Assembly: GCA_024639405.1 (NCBI GenBank)
Contig: JAHEIL010000018.1
Location: forward strand, 1-40,082
Direction: 5' to 3'
Source: Crocinitomicaceae bacterium
Lineage (GTDB): Bacteria > Bacteroidota > Bacteroidia > Flavobacteriales_D > Crocinitomicaceae
DNA: 40,082 bases
The translations under genes and the position numbers were made by a program. Below are positions 9,679-21,585 of the stretch, in pieces; position 1 is the first letter of the stretch; each line of letters begins with the position of its first letter. The notes below the pieces were generated by a model, which was given only the letters and a program-made list of their open reading frames with translations, had not been told where the DNA came from and ran no database searches.

Positions 9679-9708
9679 ATGAACTTTAATCACTTAAAAA
9701 AAATAATT

Positions 9709-10465: not shown

Positions 10466-11329
10466 ATGTTCTACCCTGCTTCTGAATTAGTATTAAATGC
10501 TAATAATCAAGTTTATCATTTAGGGATTTCACCTGAAAATATAGCTGAAAAAATTATTTTAGTTGGAGATCAAGACCGTGTTCATTTGGTCTCCAACTTT
10601 TTTGACACCATTAGACACACATCCCAACACCGAGAATTTGTTGTGCATACTGGCACTTTCAATGGAAAAGAAATTACAGTTATTTCAACTGGAATCGGTA
10701 CAGATAATATTGATATTGTTATCAATGAAATAGATGCTTTATTCAACATTGATTTACTCTCAAGAGAAGAAAAAACGTACAAGAAAAAGGTCGAATTTAT
10801 TCGGATTGGAACCTGTGGGATTCTTCAACGCAACATACCGCTCCACGCATATATTCTTTCAGAACATGCAATTGGTTTAGACAATATTGCGCATTTTTAT
10901 CAAATTCCTTATTCTGAAAGCGAACAGCAAAATTCCGTTTTTCTGAACCAAAAACTTGGCTTGCCTGAAAACGTAATACCATATTTTATTGATGCGAATC
11001 CACAATTGATTGGCAAATTATCTTCAGAAAAAACAGTTTCTGGAATTACGATTACAAGTAGTGGGTTTTACGGGCCTCAAGGAAGAGAGTTAAGGGCAAA
11101 AAAAAGTGTTCAAAACATGAACGAACACATAGAAAACACAATTATCGCTGGCAAAAAGATTGTTAATTTTGAAATGGAAAGTTCTGCTATTTTCGCTCTT
11201 AGCAAAGCATTAGGTCATTCTGCTACAACCATCTGCTTAGGTGTTGCAAACCGACCAAATCAAGTGTTTTCAAAAGGTTTTGAATTAGAAATGAATGAGT
11301 TAATACATTATGTCTTAGAACGTATTTAA
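10466..11329 (+). CDS. Nucleoside phosphorylase (uridine phosphorylase-like, PNP/UDP family)
   Basis: A 287-residue cytosolic enzyme of the PNP_UDP_1 family, which splits nucleosides with phosphate to free base and ribose-1-phosphate. Landmarks: GDQDR near residue 34 (phosphate-binding GDxxR), ISTGIGTDNIDI (the STGxG phosphate loop), RIGTCG near residue 112, and VNFEMESSAIF near residue 236, where the ME pair contacts ribose. This resembles uridine phosphorylases, but base specificity is not readable. Its start is one base after the DUF4197 stop. It runs 15 bases into the convergent cutC 3' end. Confidence 0.85.
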   Translation: MFYPASELVLNANNQVYHLGISPENIAEKIILVGDQDRVHLVSNFFDTIRHTSQHREFVVHTGTFNGKEITVISTGIGTDNIDIVINEIDALFNIDLLSREEKTYKKKVEFIRIGTCGILQRNIPLHAYILSEHAIGLDNIAHFYQIPYSESEQQNSVFLNQKLGLPENVIPYFIDANPQLIGKLSSEKTVSGITITSSGFYGPQGRELRAKKSVQNMNEHIENTIIAGKKIVNFEMESSAIFALSKALGHSATTICLGVANRPNQVFSKGFELEMNELIHYVLERI

Positions 11330-12016
11330 GGTTGCTAAAATTCGATTCACTCTAGCTTCATCAACTTTTAAAATTGTTTCAGAAAACAACGACTCTTCGT
11401 CCAATTGCATTTTAATTGTACCCGAAAAATGCAGTGCATCAGGATTTATTTCTTTAACTAATCTAGCTGCATTGGCAGCGCTCACTCCCCCACCAATCAT
11501 TATTTGAATATTTTCTGCACTGTATTTTTTCATTTCTTTTAATACCGGTAATCCTAACTCAACGTTGCGCGCTAAACCTGAAGTCAAAACACGATTAACA
11601 TTGTTTTGAATCAAAATGTTGAGAGATTTTTTCCAATCATAGCTATCATCAAATGCACGGTGAAACGTGACTTCCATTCCAGCAGATTTCAGCATGACTT
11701 TCTTTAAAAAATCTTCGTCAATTGCACCTTTTTCTGTTAAAGCTCCAATAACAATTCCACTTGCCCCCATTGCTTTACAATTAATGATTTCTCGCAACAT
11801 GATTTCTTGTTCATCTTCCGAATAAAAGAAACCTCCTGGACGCGGACGAATTAAAACATGAGTTTCAATCCCATAAGCAATCGCGTATTCAATCATTCCA
11901 TATGAGGGTGTAATTCCTCCTTGTTCAAGATTTTGACACAATTCTATTCGATCAAAATTTAATCTTTTGGCTAAACGTATTGCAGCTAAAGAGGCTGCGC
12001 ACAATTCTAACTTCAT
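11315..12016 (-). CDS. cutC: CutC family protein
   Basis: A 233-residue TIM-barrel protein of the CutC family, historically called copper homeostasis protein; the actual biochemical role is unsettled. Visible: MKLELCAASLAAIRLA, RIELCQNLEQGGITPS, LIRPRPGGFFYSEDE, GASGIVIGAL, TFHRAFDD, RVLTSG and IMIGGGVS, in the usual order and length. Its ATG overlaps the hexosaminidase stop by one base (TAATG), which suggests translational coupling. Its end overlaps the convergent phosphorylase gene by 15 bases. It is the last gene of the icmF-GT87-GH20-cutC run. Confidence 0.93.
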   Translation of the reverse strand: MKLELCAASLAAIRLAKRLNFDRIELCQNLEQGGITPSYGMIEYAIAYGIETHVLIRPRPGGFFYSEDEQEIMLREIINCKAMGASGIVIGALTEKGAIDEDFLKKVMLKSAGMEVTFHRAFDDSYDWKKSLNILIQNNVNRVLTSGLARNVELGLPVLKEMKKYSAENIQIMIGGGVSAANAARLVKEINPDALHFSGTIKMQLDEESLFSETILKVDEARVNRILATLNTF

Positions 12017-14271
12017 TACTTAAAATAGATGTTTATTTCATCAATAAATGTCCAAGGTGTATTTCCTTCACCATTCGAACCTACAGGAATTTTGGTTCTG
12101 TTTTTGATTTGGAATTTAACGAATCTACCATTCATTTTTTGATTTAATTGAAATTTTACAGCTGATTTATCCAATCTTAGCCCTGTTGGTTTCGACCATT
12201 TTTTTCCATTTTTCGAAACAAATATTTCACAATTTTCAGGTGCGTAAATCCAAGAATTAGTATCGTCTAGAAAGTGAATGGAAGCACCTTCAATGGTAGA
12301 TTTTTGAGTTAAATCAACAATAAATTCAATAGTTGACGTGTCAAATCCTAGCCATTCATAGCCTTTCCAAGGTAATTTCCCATAAACACCATCCACTAAG
12401 GTCAAACTGCCATTTGAACTATATTGAGGACTCGGTTTGGTAATAAACGTAATTGGTAAACCCAAAGCTGGGTGTCGATAAATAACTTGTTTCGCAGGAT
12501 CTTTTAACAATGGTGATGTCAATACTACCGTGATTTTCTCAACGGTTGAACCTACTGTACGATCAAAATCCATTGAATCTAAATCACCAATTGTTTTTGA
12601 AATAAAGCTAGTATTGTCGCCAATTTTATAATTCAATTGAAAATCTTGTGTTTGATCTTCATCTTTAACATATAATTTCATTCCAGTCTTTGTTGGAACT
12701 AATTTAGAACTTGGATAAAACAATGCTCTTGAAAAATTGACATTTCTTTGTTTTAAATATCCCACATGAAAAGCTTGAAAAGCCTGTTTAAATTCTTCGA
12801 ATTTTGGTTTTTCTTGACACCACAATGCTTGAGAAAGAGCTATAGCGCGTGGATAAGCCATGTATTCTAATTTTTCCATCGTAGGAATGTACTCTGTCCA
12901 TAAATTGGCTTGTCCACCCAAAATATAGGCATGGTAACTTGCTGGTAATTTCTCAGGGATTGGGTTGAAATCATATACTTTTTCTATCGGTGTATATCCG
13001 CCAATCGCTATTGGCTCGGCCGGATTCGTACTTTGATAATGATCGAAATAGCAATGAGATCCTGGAGACATAACAACAAAATGTTGTTGTTTTGCTGCAT
13101 CAATTCCTCCTTCAAATCCTCGCCAAGACATAACTGCAGCATTATCAGATAATCCTCCTTCTAAAATTTCATCCCATCCAATTAATTTCCTACCTTTTTT
13201 CGTTAAATATTTATCCATTTGTTGGATAAAATAGCTTTGCAAATGGTGTTCGTCCGGAATTCCATTTTCACGCATAACAGCTTGACATTTTTTACATTTT
13301 GTCCAACGTGCTTTTGGTGCTTCGTCACCACCAACGTGAATGTATTGAGAAGGAAACAAAACCAAAACCTCATCTAAAATATCTTGTAAAAAATGGATAC
13401 TTTCTTCTTTGGAGCAAAAAATATCATCAAAAACACCCCATAAACCAGGCACGCCTTGTTCCTCAATCGTACACGAAAACTGAGGATAAGCAGCTAATGC
13501 AGCACGCGAATGTCCTGGCATTTCAATTTCAGGAACAATTGTAACATAGCGATCTTGAGCATATTTCACTACATCTTTGATTTGCTCTTGCGTGTAAAAT
13601 CCACCATATTTGTTTTTAGAATAGGTACGAGGAGAAGTTGTATAATGATTTTCAACAGTACTATCTCGCCAAGCACCTATTTCAGTTAATTTTGGGTACT
13701 TTTTAATCTCAATTCGCCAACCTTGGTCGTCCGTTAAATGCCAATGAAAGGTATTGAACTTGTAAAAAGCCATTAAATCAATGTATTTTTTGACTTGTTC
13801 AACCGTGAAAAAATGTCGACTCACATCTAAATGCAAACCACGCCATTGAAATTTAGGTGCATCTTGAACAAACGCCCGTTGAATTGAATAGTGTTCTTTT
13901 TCTCCATTTATCAATTGAAACAAAGAATTGAAAGCGTAAAAACAACTCGCTTCAGAAGTAAATCGAATTTTCACATTGTCACCAATATTTATCGAATAAA
14001 AATCAGTTGGAGCGTTGTTTAATTTTTGAAATTGAACAAGTGCGTTTTTACCTCCAAAAACACAATTAATACCATACATTTCTTTTAATTGCGTTTGCAT
14101 GTAATTTCGCAAAGGCTTAACCAAAAGAGTTGAATCGAAGGACAATTCATTTCCTAAATTGATTTCACCAACCATCGCTTTATAAACTCCAGGAGCTGGT
14201 AAAATGACACTTTGTGAAAGCCCAACTTTCGTCAACAAAAGCAATAAAGCTAATAAAAAAGGATGTTTCAT
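12016..14271 (-). CDS. Beta-N-acetylhexosaminidase, GH20
   Basis: A 751-residue exported glycoside hydrolase that removes terminal N-acetylglucosamine/galactosamine from chitin oligomers, peptidoglycan fragments or glycoproteins. Signal peptide 1-19. An N-terminal GH20b-like domain (about 25-140) precedes the catalytic barrel (about 141-500) with HWHLTDDQGWRIEIKKYP, EIEMPGHSRAALAAYP and the catalytic pair in HVGGDEAPK (Asp316, Glu317; Asp assists the acetamido group, Glu is the acid). GWDEILEGG and MSWRG follow. The C-terminal ~110 residues look like a discoidin (F5/8 C) carbohydrate-binding module. Its ATG overlaps the GT87 stop (ATGA) and its stop overlaps cutC. Confidence 0.94.
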   Translation of the reverse strand: MKHPFLLALLLLLTKVGLSQSVILPAPGVYKAMVGEINLGNELSFDSTLLVKPLRNYMQTQLKEMYGINCVFGGKNALVQFQKLNNAPTDFYSINIGDNVKIRFTSEASCFYAFNSLFQLINGEKEHYSIQRAFVQDAPKFQWRGLHLDVSRHFFTVEQVKKYIDLMAFYKFNTFHWHLTDDQGWRIEIKKYPKLTEIGAWRDSTVENHYTTSPRTYSKNKYGGFYTQEQIKDVVKYAQDRYVTIVPEIEMPGHSRAALAAYPQFSCTIEEQGVPGLWGVFDDIFCSKEESIHFLQDILDEVLVLFPSQYIHVGGDEAPKARWTKCKKCQAVMRENGIPDEHHLQSYFIQQMDKYLTKKGRKLIGWDEILEGGLSDNAAVMSWRGFEGGIDAAKQQHFVVMSPGSHCYFDHYQSTNPAEPIAIGGYTPIEKVYDFNPIPEKLPASYHAYILGGQANLWTEYIPTMEKLEYMAYPRAIALSQALWCQEKPKFEEFKQAFQAFHVGYLKQRNVNFSRALFYPSSKLVPTKTGMKLYVKDEDQTQDFQLNYKIGDNTSFISKTIGDLDSMDFDRTVGSTVEKITVVLTSPLLKDPAKQVIYRHPALGLPITFITKPSPQYSSNGSLTLVDGVYGKLPWKGYEWLGFDTSTIEFIVDLTQKSTIEGASIHFLDDTNSWIYAPENCEIFVSKNGKKWSKPTGLRLDKSAVKFQLNQKMNGRFVKFQIKNRTKIPVGSNGEGNTPWTFIDEINIYFK

Positions 14272-15470
14272 AATTTAGATGTTTCAGGCAAATTCTCCAG
14301 GTTTCTTACCTTAAAAGATAGGAAATAAAAAAAGAAAATTGCAGTTAAATTTACAATTCCTAACAAACCAATTTCAGCAATAGAATCAGATAGACTTGCA
14401 GACATAAGATCGTTTGATCGCAGTGTAAAAGGCATTAAAATAATCGAAAAGAATAGCCACAGCTTCCAATTTTTCAATTTCAATAAATAGTAAACTATTA
14501 AAATTAATAAAGGCATTGACAATAAAAAATGTTCGGTATCTGTTACGAAAAAATTGGGTGTAAACGCCATTAAAACGATGGAGAACTCAATGAAACTATA
14601 AGTTGAAAAAGTTTGTCTTTTCGAATAAAAATATCCCAATGTCAGAATAATCAACAGTACAAAAATTGATGGTAACCAGGTTGAATTAATCCCTAAATAA
14701 TAGTTGGCTAGATACGTTAAGGAATACTGACTTATAATGTAATTACCATGTTTGGAAACTGCTAAAAACCAAAAGCGCCAAATTTCTATAATCCCATTAA
14801 AAGAATTATTCAAAATTGGAAGTATAAAAAAGAAAGTACCCAACAAAGCTAATCCTCCAATAATCTTCCACTTTTTATAGAATAATAAAGGAATAAAAAC
14901 GATGACAACAATTGGCTTTAAGATTACCATTAATCCCCATGCAAAAATTGTCGTCCACTGTTTATTTCTTAAAACGCCATATAACCCAAGCGTAAAAAAG
15001 AAAAATAAGAATAAATTGATGTTGCCTATATGAAACTCTCTAACAAGTTGAATAACGGTGAAAAAGAACGCTGTATAGAGCATCCAATTGTATTTTTTAT
15101 CCTGATTTAATCGCTCTACAAATAAAATTTTTCGCAAATAATAAACCCCAAACACAAATGCGACTAACAATAGAATTGAATGAATAATTTGAGCTGTAAA
15201 AAAAGAAACTTTTGTTGTAAAATAGAAAAAATAAAGGGTAGATGGAGGGTATTTAAAAAAACCTGTCTCTTCACCATATGCCAATAGATATGGGTTTTTT
15301 CCTTCAAAATAATCTTTAGCAGCCAAATAATACACCTCGAAATCGTTGGTGTAAAATTTACCATTTAACTTTTCAACAAAGATTAAAAGTGTTACAAATA
15401 ATAGCATAAAAACCCCGAAGATCACTATTGACCTTTGGGGTTTTATTAACTTATTTTTTAAGAAACTCAT
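14268..15470 (-). CDS. Polytopic membrane protein, GT87/DUF2029-like glycosyltransferase
   Basis: A 400-residue inner-membrane protein with about ten hydrophobic helices. After the first helix comes DFEVYYLAAKDYFEGKNPY and then FKYPPSTLYFF, the pattern of GT87 (DUF2029) polyprenyl-phosphate-mannose-type transferases, with the Asp as the likely catalytic residue. Donor and acceptor are unknown. ATG at 15468-15470 is chosen; a TTG directly before it is less likely. A terminator-like hairpin covers codons about 9-21, and an in-frame ATG at 15405-15407 lies just past it. That shorter start would cut the first membrane helix roughly in half, so I keep the longer form. It is 6 bases after icmF and overlaps the GH20 start. 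Confidence 0.75.
   Translation of the reverse strand: MSFLKNKLIKPQRSIVIFGVFMLLFVTLLIFVEKLNGKFYTNDFEVYYLAAKDYFEGKNPYLLAYGEETGFFKYPPSTLYFFYFTTKVSFFTAQIIHSILLLVAFVFGVYYLRKILFVERLNQDKKYNWMLYTAFFFTVIQLVREFHIGNINLFLFFFFTLGLYGVLRNKQWTTIFAWGLMVILKPIVVIVFIPLLFYKKWKIIGGLALLGTFFFILPILNNSFNGIIEIWRFWFLAVSKHGNYIISQYSLTYLANYYLGINSTWLPSIFVLLIILTLGYFYSKRQTFSTYSFIEFSIVLMAFTPNFFVTDTEHFLLSMPLLILIVYYLLKLKNWKLWLFFSIILMPFTLRSNDLMSASLSDSIAEIGLLGIVNLTAIFFFYFLSFKVRNLENLPETSKL
15408..15444 (-). terminator. Terminator-like hairpin inside the 5' end of the GT87 gene
   Basis: On the minus strand AAAACCCC (15444-15437) pairs with GGGGTTTT (15416-15409), and the stem continues inward with one A-C mismatch and one G-T wobble to a 4-base loop (15425-15428): about 15 of 16 positions paired. 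A run of five T follows (15412-15408), then an ATG (15407-15405). It lies 33 bases beyond the icmF stop. It has the form of an intrinsic terminator for icmF but sits within the GT87 reading frame. Confidence 0.6.
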
Positions 15471-15476
15471 CAAAAA

Positions 15477-18400
15477 TTACATATTTCTTCGGTATTGACC
15501 ACCCACTTCAAACAAGGCTTCTGTAATTTGACCTAATGATGAATACTTACATGTTTCCATCAATTGTTCAAACATATTTTGATTGCTAATCGCTGCATTT
15601 TGAACTTTTTCAATGCCATTTTTAGCAATTTCAGCATTTCCTTTTTGCAAGTTTTCCAACATGGTAATTTGGTATGCTTTTTCTTCTTCTGTAGCTCGAA
15701 TTACTTCTTTCGGTAGTACAGTTGGAGAACCTTTCGAACTCAAGAATGTATTCACACCAATAATTGGGAATTCACCTGTGTGCTTCAACATTTCATAATA
15801 CAACGATTCTTCTTGAATTTTAGAACGTTGGTACATAGTTTCCATTGCACCTAAAACTCCACCACGTTCCGTAATGCGATCAAACTCCAACAAAACAGCT
15901 TCTTCTACTAAATCAGTTAATTCTTCAATAATAAAAGACCCTTGCAATGGATTTTCATTTTTAGCCAATCCCAATTCACGGTTAATGATTAATTGAATGG
16001 CCATTGCACGACGAACAGATTCTTCTGTTGGTGTAGTAATCGCTTCGTCATAAGCGTTGGTATGTAATGAATTACAATTGTCATAAATCGCATACAATGC
16101 TTGTAAAGTTGTACGTATATCGTTGAAATCAATTTCTTGGGCATGTAACGAACGTCCAGATGTTTGAATGTGGTATTTCAACATTTGCGCACGCGCATTT
16201 GCTCCGTATTTACGTGCAAGTGCTTTCGCCCAAATTCTTCTTGAAACACGACCAATTACAGCATATTCAGGATCAATTCCATTGGAGAAGAAGAAAGATA
16301 AATTTGGACCAAAATCATTGATACTCATACCACGACTCATGTAATATTCTACATACGTAAAGCCATTTGCTAATGTAAATGCCAATTGAGTAATTGGATT
16401 CGCACCTGCTTCTGCTATGTGATAACCTGAAATCGATACTGAATAGAAGTTGCGCACTCCATTCTGAATGAAATACTGTTGCACATCCCCCATTAAACGT
16501 AATGCAAATTCAGTTGAGAAAATACACGTATTCTGTGCTTGATCTTCTTTTAAAATATCTGCTTGTACTGTTCCACGAACTTGCGTTAACGTTTCAGCTT
16601 TGATGGTTGAATAAATTTCAGCAGGTAACACTTGGTCACCTGTAACTCCCAACAACATCAAGCCTAAGCCATTATTCCCTTCTGGTAATTCGCCTTGATA
16701 ACTTGGTCGAACGGTTCCTTTTTCTTTGTAAATCGCAGCGATTTTTGCTTCAACTTCCGCCTCCAAACCATTAGCAACAATGTATTTCTCACAATTTTGA
16801 TCAATGGCAGCATTCATGAAGAATCCCAACAACATCGGTGCTGGACCATTAATCGTCATTGAAACTGAAGTCATTGGATGCGATAAATCGAAACCAGAAT
16901 ACAATTTCTTAGCATCGTCTAAACAACAAATTGAAACACCTGAGTTTCCGATTTTACCATAAATATCAGGGCGAATGGCAGGATCATTTCCGTATAAAGT
17001 CACTGAATCAAACGCTGTTGACAAACGTTTTGCAGGCATTCCTAATGATACGTAATGAAAACGCTTGTTGGTTCTTTCAGGACCACCTTCACCTGCAAAC
17101 ATACGTGTTGGATCTTCGCCTTCTCGTTTGAATGGGAATAATCCAGCTGTGTAAGGAAATTCTCCAGGAACATTTTCCTGCAAAGACCATCGTAAAATAT
17201 CACCCCAACCGTTGTATTTTGGCATGGATATTTTTGGAATTTGTAAATGAGAAAGTGATTCTGTGTGTGTATCTAATTTTAATATTTTATCGCGTACTTT
17301 AAATTCAAACGTAGGATTTTTATACGTTGCTTTTTTGTCCGACCATTTCTGTAAAATGTCCCAATTTTTAGGGTCAAAATTCAATTTTTCGGTTTCAAAT
17401 GCTTCTGCTAATGCTTTAACCAAACGATCTTTATCCTCCATCGAAGATTGACGAATCGTTTCCATAGAAGAATGTAAACCTTGTAATTTATCTGCAACCA
17501 ACACTTGATCATTCACCCATTTATCATACGATCGGTTATTTTCAGAAATCTCAGATAAATATCGTGTTCTATCTGGAGGAATTACAAAAATTTTCTCCGA
17601 CATTTCTTTGGTGATTTCAAACGTTGACTTCAAATCTGCACCAGAAATTTCTACGACTTTGTCCATGATTACTTTGTACAACGAGTTCATTCCTGGATCG
17701 TTGAACTGAGAAGCAATTGTTCCATAAACAGGCATAGCATCCACATCTGCTTCCCATAAATTGTGGTTGCGTTGGTATTGTTTGCGCACATCTCTCAATG
17801 CATCTAAAGCACCACGTTTATCGAATTTATTCAATGCAATGACATCTGCAAAATCCAACATGTCAATTTTTTCCAATTGCGTTGCTGCGCCATATTCTGG
17901 AGTCATCACGTACAACGACATGTCAGAATGCTCTAAAATCTCGGTATCCGATTGACCAATTCCAGATGTTTCCAAAATAATCAAATCGTATTCAGCAGCT
18001 TTCAAAACCGTAATTGCTTCCGCCACATGTTTTGACAAGGCTAAATTTGATTGACGTGTAGCCAACGAACGCATGTAAACACGGTCACTCTTGATGGAGT
18101 TCATACGAATTCGGTCACCCAGTAAAGCGCCACCTGTTTTACGTTTAGATGGATCAACAGAAACAACAGCAATTTGTTTTGTCGGGAAATCAATTAAAAA
18201 ACGACGCACTAACTCATCGACCAGAGAAGATTTTCCAGCACCACCTGTACCAGTGATTCCTAAAACTGGAACATTGACATTTTTAGCCAAATCAGCAACT
18301 TGCGCTAAAACAGCTTTCGATTCTTCTGGATAATTCTCTGCAGCAGAAATAATATGGGCAATTGCAGGAACAAATTTCTCTTTTATTTTTAGGACATCTT

Positions 18401-18857
18401 GCTCCACATTTTGTCCAACAGGAAAATCTGATTTTTGAACCAAATCATTGATCATTCCTTGCAATCCCATGGCACGACCATCATCTGGATGATAAATACG
18501 TGTTATTCCATATGCTTGTAATTCTTCAATTTCTGAGGGTAAAATAGTTCCACCACCTCCACCAAAAATTTTGATGTGCGGCGCGCCTTTTTCTTTCAAT
18601 AAATCATACATGAATTTAAAATACTCTGTATGACCTCCTTGGTAAGAAGTCATTGCAATTGCTTGTGCATCCTCTTGAATGGCACAATTCACTACTTCTT
18701 CAACGGAACGATCGTGACCTAAGTGAATTACTTCACAACCCGTTGCTTGAATGATGCGTCGCATGATATTGATTGCTGCATCGTGACCATCGAATAACGA
18801 AGCTGCTGTGACAATTCTAATTTTATTGATTGGCTTGTAAGGCGCTACTATTTCCAT
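15477..18857 (-). CDS. icmF: Fused acyl-CoA mutase with G-protein chaperone (IcmF type)
   Basis: A 1126-residue coenzyme-B12 enzyme of IcmF architecture: B12-binding domain (about 10-140) with DGHDAA, His25 being the lower cobalt ligand; MeaB-like GTPase (about 195-420) with P-loop GTGGAGKS (203-210), [10 protein letters not shown] and NKFD (343-346); linker; then the mutase barrel (about 560-1126) with [19 protein letters not shown] and [14 protein letters not shown]. It moves the CoA-carboxyl group between carbon atoms, typically isobutyryl-CoA to n-butyryl-CoA; the GTPase guards cofactor loading. The exact substrate (isobutyryl-, pivalyl-, isovaleryl-CoA) cannot be fixed here. The domain order separates it from plain methylmalonyl-CoA mutase. 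First gene of a four-gene run. Spacer 18858-18954 shows no clear promoter. Confidence 0.93.
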
Positions 18858-18954
18858 AAACTTTTTTGTTCATTTATTTGCGGGGTAAAAATACAAAAAA
18901 TAGCCGTTAAAGAAAGCTTTTGGGAAGAAAGTTGGTGAGGAAAATTTACTGCAT

Positions 18955-21585
18955 TTAAAACCTCACAATCATCTTCAAATTGAAGCGACGTTGGGTTAAG
19001 TAGTTCGGGATCGAATAGTATTTTCCTTCCACATCTTGAATCCATTGTTTGGAAAGGATGTTGTTGATGCCCATTAAATTCAAGACTTCAAATGACAAAA
19101 TAGCATCGGTAAAGTTTTTAGAAAAGAAATTCTTCTTCGATTTTTTCTCATATAAGAAATCGTAGGAAAAACCAATGTCTACTCTAAAATAAGAACTCAT
19201 GCGCAAGGTGTCTTTGTAGCGACTTGCATCTGGTGGACCATACGGCAAAGGTGTTCCATATTGCAAGCCCATTTGAACAGAAAAACTTTCAAAGCCTGGC
19301 ATGCGGTCTTGCACCAAAGCACCAAAATTCAAGAATTGATCGGTTGGTCGAGGAATGTAACCTGGAAAAATAGTTGCGCTATCAACAACAGTTTGATCTT
19401 CTGAGTAACCGAAAATTATTTTTTCTCCTGCAGCATTGTAATATTCTTTGTAGGAATCATTCAAAATATCTTCTTTCGTAGACATAATTCCAACTTTGAA
19501 AAATGATTCGATTCCTTCTATAAATTGTCCGTGCACATTCAAATCTACTCCATACGCGTATGCAACTGCATTGTTATCTGCATAATAGCGCGTTCTAACA
19601 TTTTCGATTTCGTACGGATTCACATCCCACAGGTATTTGTAATAGGCTTCAGCGGTAAATTTAAACGGTACTTCTCTGTTCCACATGTTAAAAAACAAAT
19701 CAGAACCAGCAACAATATGAAACGATTTTTGCGCTTTTACATTTAAGTTTAATTGTCCGTCAAAAGTTCTAAATTCTCTGTAAAATGGTGGCTGGTAATA
19801 CAATCCTGTTGCCAAACGAAAAGCAACGTCTCTTCTTCGCACTTGCCCATTTCGCACCATATACAAACGTGGCATAAACGTTACAGAAATTCTTGGAGTG
19901 ACAAAAAGTTCTTGGTTCGCTGATGTATACCCAACACGCGACCCAATGTTTAATGCCCATTTCGAATTGGATTCGCGAATGGTATCAGAGAAATTTTTCA
20001 CAACGCGTTTCCCGTCAATTTTAAATTTTTTGGAAGCAAAAGCAACAAAATCACGTTTCGTTTTGGACCATGCAAAATTACCTTGTAAAAAACCAGTCAA
20101 ACGATTCGATTCTAACGCTAATTTTCCTTTAATTGTTTCCAATAATTCAACTTGGTTCGGAGAAGCTTGTGGCAATGAATATCCAGCAGAATCAATCATT
20201 TTCCATTCACTCAATTTATCATTAAAGACATCGTGTTGGTAATTAACACCCCAATTCAATGCGTGGTTGCGGTAATTGATTCGATCGCTGTCAATGTATT
20301 TGTTTTTAATCACAAATTGTCCATTGTGATAAACGTTCACAATTGTAGCAGTTAATTGGTTACGCGCATGGTTCAAAAAAGTTCCAATCCCTAAAACAGC
20401 AATTGAATCGCCATAATTTTCTTTGGAAGGATCAGTTTCTAATTGGTTGATATAATATTGACCTTGTATGTCAAACGCTTCTCTTTCATTGGTATTGAAC
20501 AAAGTTGTGTAAAGGTCTAATTTCGTGCGTTTGTTGACGCGCCATTTGAAGGCAGTTCCTCCCATCATGGTTTGAAAACGGGTCAATTCTTGTCCATCGA
20601 AATAAATTTTAAAGCGGTATGCCTCATTCGCTGTTCCGAAATCGGTTTCTTGTGTTTGAGGAGAAAATTGATAGGTGTTACTGGAGAAATGTCCAATTAC
20701 AGACCATGATAAATTTTCAGTTAATTCATAATTTGTCAAAAATTGCGCATCCCAAAAGACAGGATTGTAACCACCTTGTGCGGGCAAAGAATTTAAAAAA
20801 TAACCATTTGAACGGTACCTTGCTCCTACTAAATAATTGAACCGAGAAGATACTTTTTGTTCAGCATGCGCTTCAATTCCCAACATCGAAGCCATAGCGG
20901 AACCTCTAAAAACCGAAGGTGTTTTGTATTCTATGTCCAAAACAGAACTTAATTTATCGCCGTATTGTGCATCAAAACCTCCTGCAGAGAAGCGAATGGA
21001 TTTTACCAACGCAGAATTGATGAAACTCATTCCTTCTTGCTGCCCACTTCGGGTTAGAAAGGGTCGGTAAATCGAAAACCCATTGACATAAACTAAATTC
21101 TCATCGTAGCTTCCACCTCTCACATTGTAATTACTCGTTAATTCATTGTTGGAAGATGCAGCCGTTGTATACACCAACGATCGTTCTACACTTGCATTGG
21201 GTAATTTTTGCAAATCGTAATACGGCAATTTTGGAATTTCAAAAGGATCAGAAAGTGCAGCCTTAACATTTACTTCTTGTTGAATTATAAACGGGAATTT
21301 GATTGTTCCAACAGAAAAAGTGGTTTGATTGGGTATGTAAAATACTCTTACTTCAACGATGTCTCCGGATTGAAAACTCACGTTCAAACTATCATTCGCA
21401 CGAGCATTGAATTCAAATTCACCTTTTTCATTGCTAAAAATTGCTTGGTTTATTGAATTATCTGGTTGTATTTTTACTAAGTCAAGTGCTGTACCTTTTT
21501 TGTCAACACAACGACCTGAAACACGCACTTGTTGCGCAAGCAGCTGAAACGAAGACAATAAAAACAAAACAACTAGTAAACGCAT
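18955..21585 (-). CDS. TonB-dependent outer-membrane receptor with N-terminal carboxypeptidase-regulatory-like domain
   Basis: An 876-residue outer-membrane beta-barrel transporter powered by TonB. Signal peptide 1-18 (MRLLVVLFLLSSFQLLAQ). Residues about 20-100 form a CarbopepD_reg-like beta domain (VSGRCVDKKGTALDLVKI), residues about 115-225 the plug (YNVRGGSYDENLVYVNG, GGFDAQYGDKLSSVLDI), and the rest is a barrel rich in aromatic strands that ends in Phe (KMIVRF). The ligand is unknown: there is no SusD partner, siderophore gene or metal regulator beside it. The upstream gene is bshC, 82 bases away, same strand. That spacer contains a TAAGTTTG (-7-like) at 21632-21639 without a -33. Confidence 0.93.
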   Translation of the reverse strand: MRLLVVLFLLSSFQLLAQQVRVSGRCVDKKGTALDLVKIQPDNSINQAIFSNEKGEFEFNARANDSLNVSFQSGDIVEVRVFYIPNQTTFSVGTIKFPFIIQQEVNVKAALSDPFEIPKLPYYDLQKLPNASVERSLVYTTAASSNNELTSNYNVRGGSYDENLVYVNGFSIYRPFLTRSGQQEGMSFINSALVKSIRFSAGGFDAQYGDKLSSVLDIEYKTPSVFRGSAMASMLGIEAHAEQKVSSRFNYLVGARYRSNGYFLNSLPAQGGYNPVFWDAQFLTNYELTENLSWSVIGHFSSNTYQFSPQTQETDFGTANEAYRFKIYFDGQELTRFQTMMGGTAFKWRVNKRTKLDLYTTLFNTNEREAFDIQGQYYINQLETDPSKENYGDSIAVLGIGTFLNHARNQLTATIVNVYHNGQFVIKNKYIDSDRINYRNHALNWGVNYQHDVFNDKLSEWKMIDSAGYSLPQASPNQVELLETIKGKLALESNRLTGFLQGNFAWSKTKRDFVAFASKKFKIDGKRVVKNFSDTIRESNSKWALNIGSRVGYTSANQELFVTPRISVTFMPRLYMVRNGQVRRRDVAFRLATGLYYQPPFYREFRTFDGQLNLNVKAQKSFHIVAGSDLFFNMWNREVPFKFTAEAYYKYLWDVNPYEIENVRTRYYADNNAVAYAYGVDLNVHGQFIEGIESFFKVGIMSTKEDILNDSYKEYYNAAGEKIIFGYSEDQTVVDSATIFPGYIPRPTDQFLNFGALVQDRMPGFESFSVQMGLQYGTPLPYGPPDASRYKDTLRMSSYFRVDIGFSYDFLYEKKSKKNFFSKNFTDAILSFEVLNLMGINNILSKQWIQDVEGKYYSIPNYLTQRRFNLKMIVRF

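Follow-up and report, generated by a model that had tools for sequence, protein, structure and literature searches.

In the window, i.e. the whole stretch of 40,082 nucleotides that was analysed, a terminator-shaped hairpin lies within the coding start of a GT87-family membrane glycosyltransferase gene, directly after an icmF-type gene. A compact hairpin with a T-rich tail occupies the same place in four genomes of the genus and in one gene remnant, and it exceeds what random synonymous recoding of the same codons yields. On balance, comparison of these sequences suggests that the hairpin is probably an operon-internal intrinsic terminator, which would end most icmF transcripts while a fraction reads through into the GT87, GH20 and cutC genes. 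It is a known kind of element, an ordinary signal in an unusual place. The features concerned are:

15477..18857, minus strand: icmF-type fused B12-binding / MeaB GTPase / methylmalonyl-CoA mutase-like protein, the upstream gene (PF02310, PF03308, PF01642)
15468..15473, minus strand: likely GT87 start region, TTG 15473 / ATG 15470 (comparison with the relatives G006 and G025)
15408..15444, minus strand: terminator-shaped hairpin with U-tract, which encodes KPQRSIVIFGVF of GT87 (fold, T-tail scan, recoding)
15405..15407, minus strand: in-frame ATG (residue 22) 3' of the U-tract, improbable as the start (AlphaFold2 helix 13–35; ATT in G025, TGT in G002)
14268..15473, minus strand: GT87-family membrane glycosyltransferase (PF09594, E 7.8e-14)
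12016..14271, minus strand: GH20 family protein (PF00728, E 9e-121)
11315..12016, minus strand: CutC family protein (PF03932, E 1.2e-56)

The gene order in this freshwater Crocinitomicaceae bacterium is thus icmF, GT87, GH20 and cutC, where icmF is the name that we assume, following an earlier note, for the gene at 15477..18857. Because GT87 and GH20 overlap by 4 nt and GH20 and cutC by 1 nt, the last three genes look like one operon. The cutC gene and a nucleoside phosphorylase gene on the plus strand converge with a 15-nt overlap (window 11315-11329), and a 156-aa ORF lies between these two genes in the relative G009. In G006 and G025, the identity of the last 500 residues of IcmF (window 15480-16979, minus strand) was printed as 100%, and the adjacent GT87 is 90% and 69% identical, respectively.

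Structure of the hairpin and start of the GT87 gene

An earlier note on this DNA had described a terminator-shaped hairpin with a stem of about 16 positions including an A-C mismatch and a wobble, a 4-base loop and five T, and our coordinates and fold confirm it exactly as placed. On the minus strand it reads AAAACCCC-A-AAGGTCA / ATAG / TGATCTT-C-GGGGTTTT(T) from 15444 to 15408. The 16 stem positions comprise 15 pairs, one of them the single G-U pair (15432/15421), and the A-C mismatch (15436/15417), and four of the five T in the T run pair with the AAAA of the 5' arm. The RNA fold has an energy of -19.5 kcal/mol compared with -7.0 (sd 2.4) in shuffled sequences (z -5.2; 0 of 200 shuffles as good), and the pair probabilities of the core are 0.76–1.0 in a 250-nt context. 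A stable hairpin is followed immediately 3' by a T run, as in an intrinsic terminator, and it is overlapped by an ORF whose translation would cover it, as in a ribosome-gated attenuator. The hairpin was listed by the T-tail scan made for this analysis, and its site was unlisted in a simple scan of the window for sigma-70 promoters and terminators, which performed at chance level.

The stem begins 33 positions past the end of the icmF ORF (15477), the core starts 36 nt 3' of the icmF stop, and the hairpin is spanned by codons 9/10 to 21 of GT87 (residues 10–21, counted from ATG 15470), in agreement with the placement given earlier, namely 33 bases past the icmF stop and within the first 21 codons of GT87. 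The in-frame ATG at 15407-15405 lies directly 3' of the T run, as would be expected if the hairpin were an ordinary spacer terminator and GT87 truly began at this ATG or at a GTG in the loop. Indeed, at another locus of this genome (L111) the mechanical start call has probably swallowed a terminator. Nevertheless, we regard this alternative as very improbable for the GT87 gene. In an AlphaFold2 model (26 alignment rows, mean pLDDT 87.7, residues 1–9 below 50) the first helix comprises residues 13–35 counted from ATG 15470, and a start at ATG 15407 would cost this helix 9 of its 23 residues. G025 has ATT at the position of this ATG and no ATG, GTG or TTG between the hairpin and the TND motif, G002 has TGT there and, ahead of the 3' arm, a single possible start, at +7, and the IFGxF residues just 5' of ATG 15407 align across the relatives.

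In G006, ATG 15470 of the window is replaced by AAG, and upstream there are just two possible starts, a TTG at +4 that by eye aligns with an ATG in G025 and a GTG in the hairpin loop. This loop GTG, a TTG in G025, is a formal alternative start in this clade and is absent as an option in G002. Because of the helix loss at the later ATG and the comparison of start codons in G025, G006 and G002, the overlap of the hairpin with the GT87 coding sequence is very likely real. This supports the earlier argument that the later ATG would shorten the first membrane helix and that the overlap is genuine, and it disfavours the other option raised there, i.e. the later ATG as true start with an ordinary terminator ahead of it.

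The hairpin in related genomes

A GT87 gene of this kind was found in 8 of the 26 genomes of the genus. In all 8, as well as in G026 from another genus, icmF lies directly upstream and the GT87 start is located 0–28 nt past the icmF stop. Four of the eight genes carry the compact T-tailed hairpin at their start, namely those of the window's genome (G000), G006, G025 and G002. The last of these, with a GT87 identity of 49%, has a different stem in the same place, and the 5' arm of G002 and G009 pairs one base out of register relative to G000. As to the remaining four, G022 showed no hairpin at the GT87 start in the T-tail scan and the recoding test, G010 has a weak one (-2.7), G020 one of -8.4 with a 41-nt core, and G019 reaches -14.7, though its core spans 45 nt and its tail is a poor TTTTC. 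In the GT87 tree the four hairpin genes stand opposite the other four of the genus on a weak branch (82/31), and this tree and the icmF tree with its open backbone fit one origin of the hairpin as well as two.

Of 23 GT87 loci (L048–L070), seven show near their start a hairpin with a T tail and an energy of -9 or lower. Three of these are of the compact kind (L048, L049 and L050) and four have longer cores of 35–45 nt (L058, -11.4; L060, -10.5; L063, -9.4; and L065, which is G019, -14.7). The names of the MAG records L051, L055, L067 and L070 (e.g. Chryseobacterium gleum, Chitinophaga pinensis and Actinomyces viscosus) clash with their Crocinitomicaceae-like place in the GT87 tree.

In total, 22 icmF junctions of the genus were scanned, with G001, G016, G017 and G018 left out, and 14 of them lack GT87. 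A hairpin next to the icmF stop is present in two of these 14, G009 (-14.5) and G003 (-9.6, at +6), and in the other 12 the 70 nt past icmF are free of T-tailed hairpins reaching -9 or lower, from which it follows that icmF does not need a 3' hairpin. Outside the genus, an ordinary T-tailed hairpin (-8.7 or lower) is located at +20 to +54 past icmF in 4 of 8 genomes without an adjacent GT87.

The most telling single observation is G009, in which a gene start has been left behind with its terminator-shaped part unchanged. The GT87 search of the 26 genus genomes gave no match in G009, and between icmF and GH20 (L087 562-716) about 26 GT87 start codons remain with an intact hairpin. The match of this remnant to the GT87 start of G002 (78%) extends over 27 codons and includes one that precedes the ATG. 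Comparison of G002 with G009 over the 90 bases past the icmF stop gives 12 differences, of which none falls in the 20 bases of the stem arms, 2 in the 7 of the loop and 10 in the remaining 63 (0/20 in the arms versus 12/70 in the others, P 0.039).

Recoding, conservation and look-alike hairpins

Chance is a serious rival, which we consider a real though minority possibility. According to this explanation the FG[IV]F residues of the first helix give GGG-TTTTT, the upstream proline and lysine codons happen to pair with it, and the hairpin has no function in transcription. G022 fits such an origin, as its identical GGG-ATTTTTTT arm has nothing to pair with. A recoding null speaks against it. In detail, 30 codons were randomly replaced by synonymous ones with local codon usage in 4000 trials per genome, and the recodings equal to or better than the observed hairpin numbered 1 in G006, 6 in G025 and 1 in the G009 remnant, as well as 2 in G000, a value that is biased because the window's hairpin was picked for having been noticed. 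G002 gave 3; its hairpin was not picked in this way, yet it is one among five GT87 lineages of the genus. For other genus members the corresponding numbers were 31 (G019), 137 (G020) and 1354 (G010). The hairpin of the window is in addition built from rare codons: CCC makes up 5.6% of the Pro codons, AGG 2.8% of those for Arg, GGG 7.6% of those for Gly and TTC 22% of those for Phe. These codons, the hairpin in G002 and the remnant in G009 likewise argue against chance. The G+C content of the sampled genome is 33.6%.

The check for compensatory changes in the stem, proposed in the earlier note, gave a mixed result. From G000 to G025 two pairs are altered but still paired and the A-C mismatch has turned into a pair; on the other hand one pair is broken, and when equally many changes were placed at random, 553 of 4000 trials left a hairpin of at least this strength, which is not significant alone. 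Between G000 and G006, none of the 37 hairpin bases but 13 of 113 neighbouring ones are changed (P 0.021). In this comparison 5% of all 37-nt stretches are unchanged, and identical runs of 57, 48 and 47 nt elsewhere exceed the hairpin's own run of 43 nt.

As a background, 33 stretches of this genome were sampled together with the window, 634,128 bases in all with 511 mechanically called ORFs, and hairpins that are compact with a T-rich tail were termed strict. At -13 kcal/mol or lower there were 16 intergenic strict hairpins, 2 within ORFs in sense and 2 in antisense. The GT87-start hairpin is one of the two sense cases, the other being probably due to a mis-predicted start, and its opposite strand accounts for one of the two antisense cases. 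Without the strictness rule the numbers at this threshold were 22, 10 and 4, respectively. One of these 10 in-ORF hairpins is stronger (-15.2 kcal/mol) and also lies within the window, at 10562-10597 on the plus strand in about codons 33–44 of the nucleoside phosphorylase gene. It has six T, is absent in G006 and is probably due to chance.

At -9 there were 59 intergenic, 11 sense in-ORF and 7 antisense strict hairpins. Without the strictness rule, sense and antisense numbers within ORFs were alike at this threshold (57 versus 66), which agrees with chance. Since 7 of the 11 strict in-ORF hairpins, including the GT87-start hairpin, fall within the first 25 codons, early look-alikes are to be expected in this AT-rich genome, and this too favours chance; one of the seven is a probable mis-called start and three others by eye lie in hydrophobic N-termini. 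In contrast, the remaining five of the seven early hairpins, whose starts seem genuine, are weaker (-9.7 to -12.3). Of 51 strict intergenic hairpins less than 200 nt from a stop, 45 start at +2 to +32, and the core at the GT87 start (+36) is slightly further away.

Five other early-ORF hairpins were traced into G006 and G025, where one is kept at -9 or lower in the two genomes and a second in G025 alone. Three further in-ORF hairpins of the window could each be traced to one of these two genomes, and none of them is kept. As control hairpins sometimes persist too, persistence is suggestive but not decisive. An early hairpin of -12.3 at about codon 25 of a 228-aa ORF (L134, minus strand, starting at 9679) is kept in G006 (-12.0), and in G025 it has -15.6 in a shifted register.

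Termination, read-through and translation

The terminator reading of the earlier note is supported by comparison, i.e. by the recoding null, the hairpin in the same place in G002 and its survival in G009, and the ordinary hairpins past icmF outside the genus also favour it, while the lack of a comparable hairpin in four of the eight GT87 genes of the genus and in 12 of the 14 junctions without GT87 counts against it. We infer termination, read-through and any effect of translation as follows. RNA polymerase leaving icmF would make the GC-core hairpin and the U-tract about 33–70 nt past the stop codon, and most of it would be released at the U-tract, giving the icmF 3' end. A minority would read through and supply the overlapping GT87, GH20 and cutC genes. 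Given release of most polymerase and read-through by a minority, the element would set a ratio of high icmF to low downstream expression. Optionally, a ribosome restarting at the GT87 start beside the icmF stop could raise read-through.

A promoter reading was tried and rejected: TANNTTTG, the flavobacterial -7 box according to PMC9723704, occurs 65 times in the window compared with 61.6 expected. On the minus strand, the stretch from the hairpin to 14851 is devoid of this box, a single copy of which is located upstream, in the end of icmF (15569-15576), and in G009 there is none on the coding strand between the remnant and GH20.

As in rho-independent (intrinsic) terminators, a compact GC-core hairpin is followed by a T run near the usual distance past a stop codon; unlike them, the GT87-start hairpin lies inside the coding sequence of the next gene and its bases also encode a membrane helix. 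A literature search on internal or intragenic terminators found no paper that matched at least two of the phrases required, and we claim absence from print no further than this. Translation-controlled attenuators offer a parallel in that a ribosome translating GT87 could, in principle, block the hairpin that this ORF overlaps, but no antiterminator partner was found for the GT87-start hairpin. Premature 3' ends inside ORFs have been mapped in E. coli (PMC7815308) and Borrelia burgdorferi (PMC10319736). They likewise lie within coding sequence and arise by termination or processing, but they were measured, whereas the terminator at the GT87 start is predicted and supported by comparison only.

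Nested within the partial-terminator explanation is a ribosome-gated attenuator, which we regard as doubtful: restart at GT87 would let a ribosome block the hairpin, so that downstream expression follows translation. The GT87 start is located 0–7 nt past the icmF stop in the four hairpin genomes, which fits such gating, and coupled ribosomes can antiterminate intrinsic terminators according to a review (PMC7858274). The same review cites Li et al. 2015 for intrinsic terminators placed within 100 nt of the beginning of an ORF terminating close to 100%, and less with distance from the start codon, which at codons 10–21 favours a mostly translation-insensitive terminator. Further points against gating are that the best upstream partner of the 5' arm reaches -9.0 kcal/mol versus -19.4 for its own arm, that the Rfam 15 covariance models gave no match at E up to 1 in 14000-19200, and that the hairpin persists in G009 with just an ORF remnant. 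Since no antiterminator partner was found, we rank ribosome gating below a plain partial terminator.

Beyond this plain partial terminator, the hairpin may be a dual-coded and ribosome-sensitive one, although we think this unlikely. Selection would then have kept the membrane-helix peptide and the terminator in the same codons, downstream expression would depend on restart at the icmF stop, and the coding start in G009 would have been kept as the terminator of the upstream gene after gene loss. If the terminator at the GT87 start is real, the first codons of one gene, rare ones among them, would form the stop signal of the gene before it, and G009 would be a gene-loss fossil that still holds this signal. 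Such a case would serve as a small natural test for the blocking of early-ORF terminators by ribosomes in Bacteroidota.
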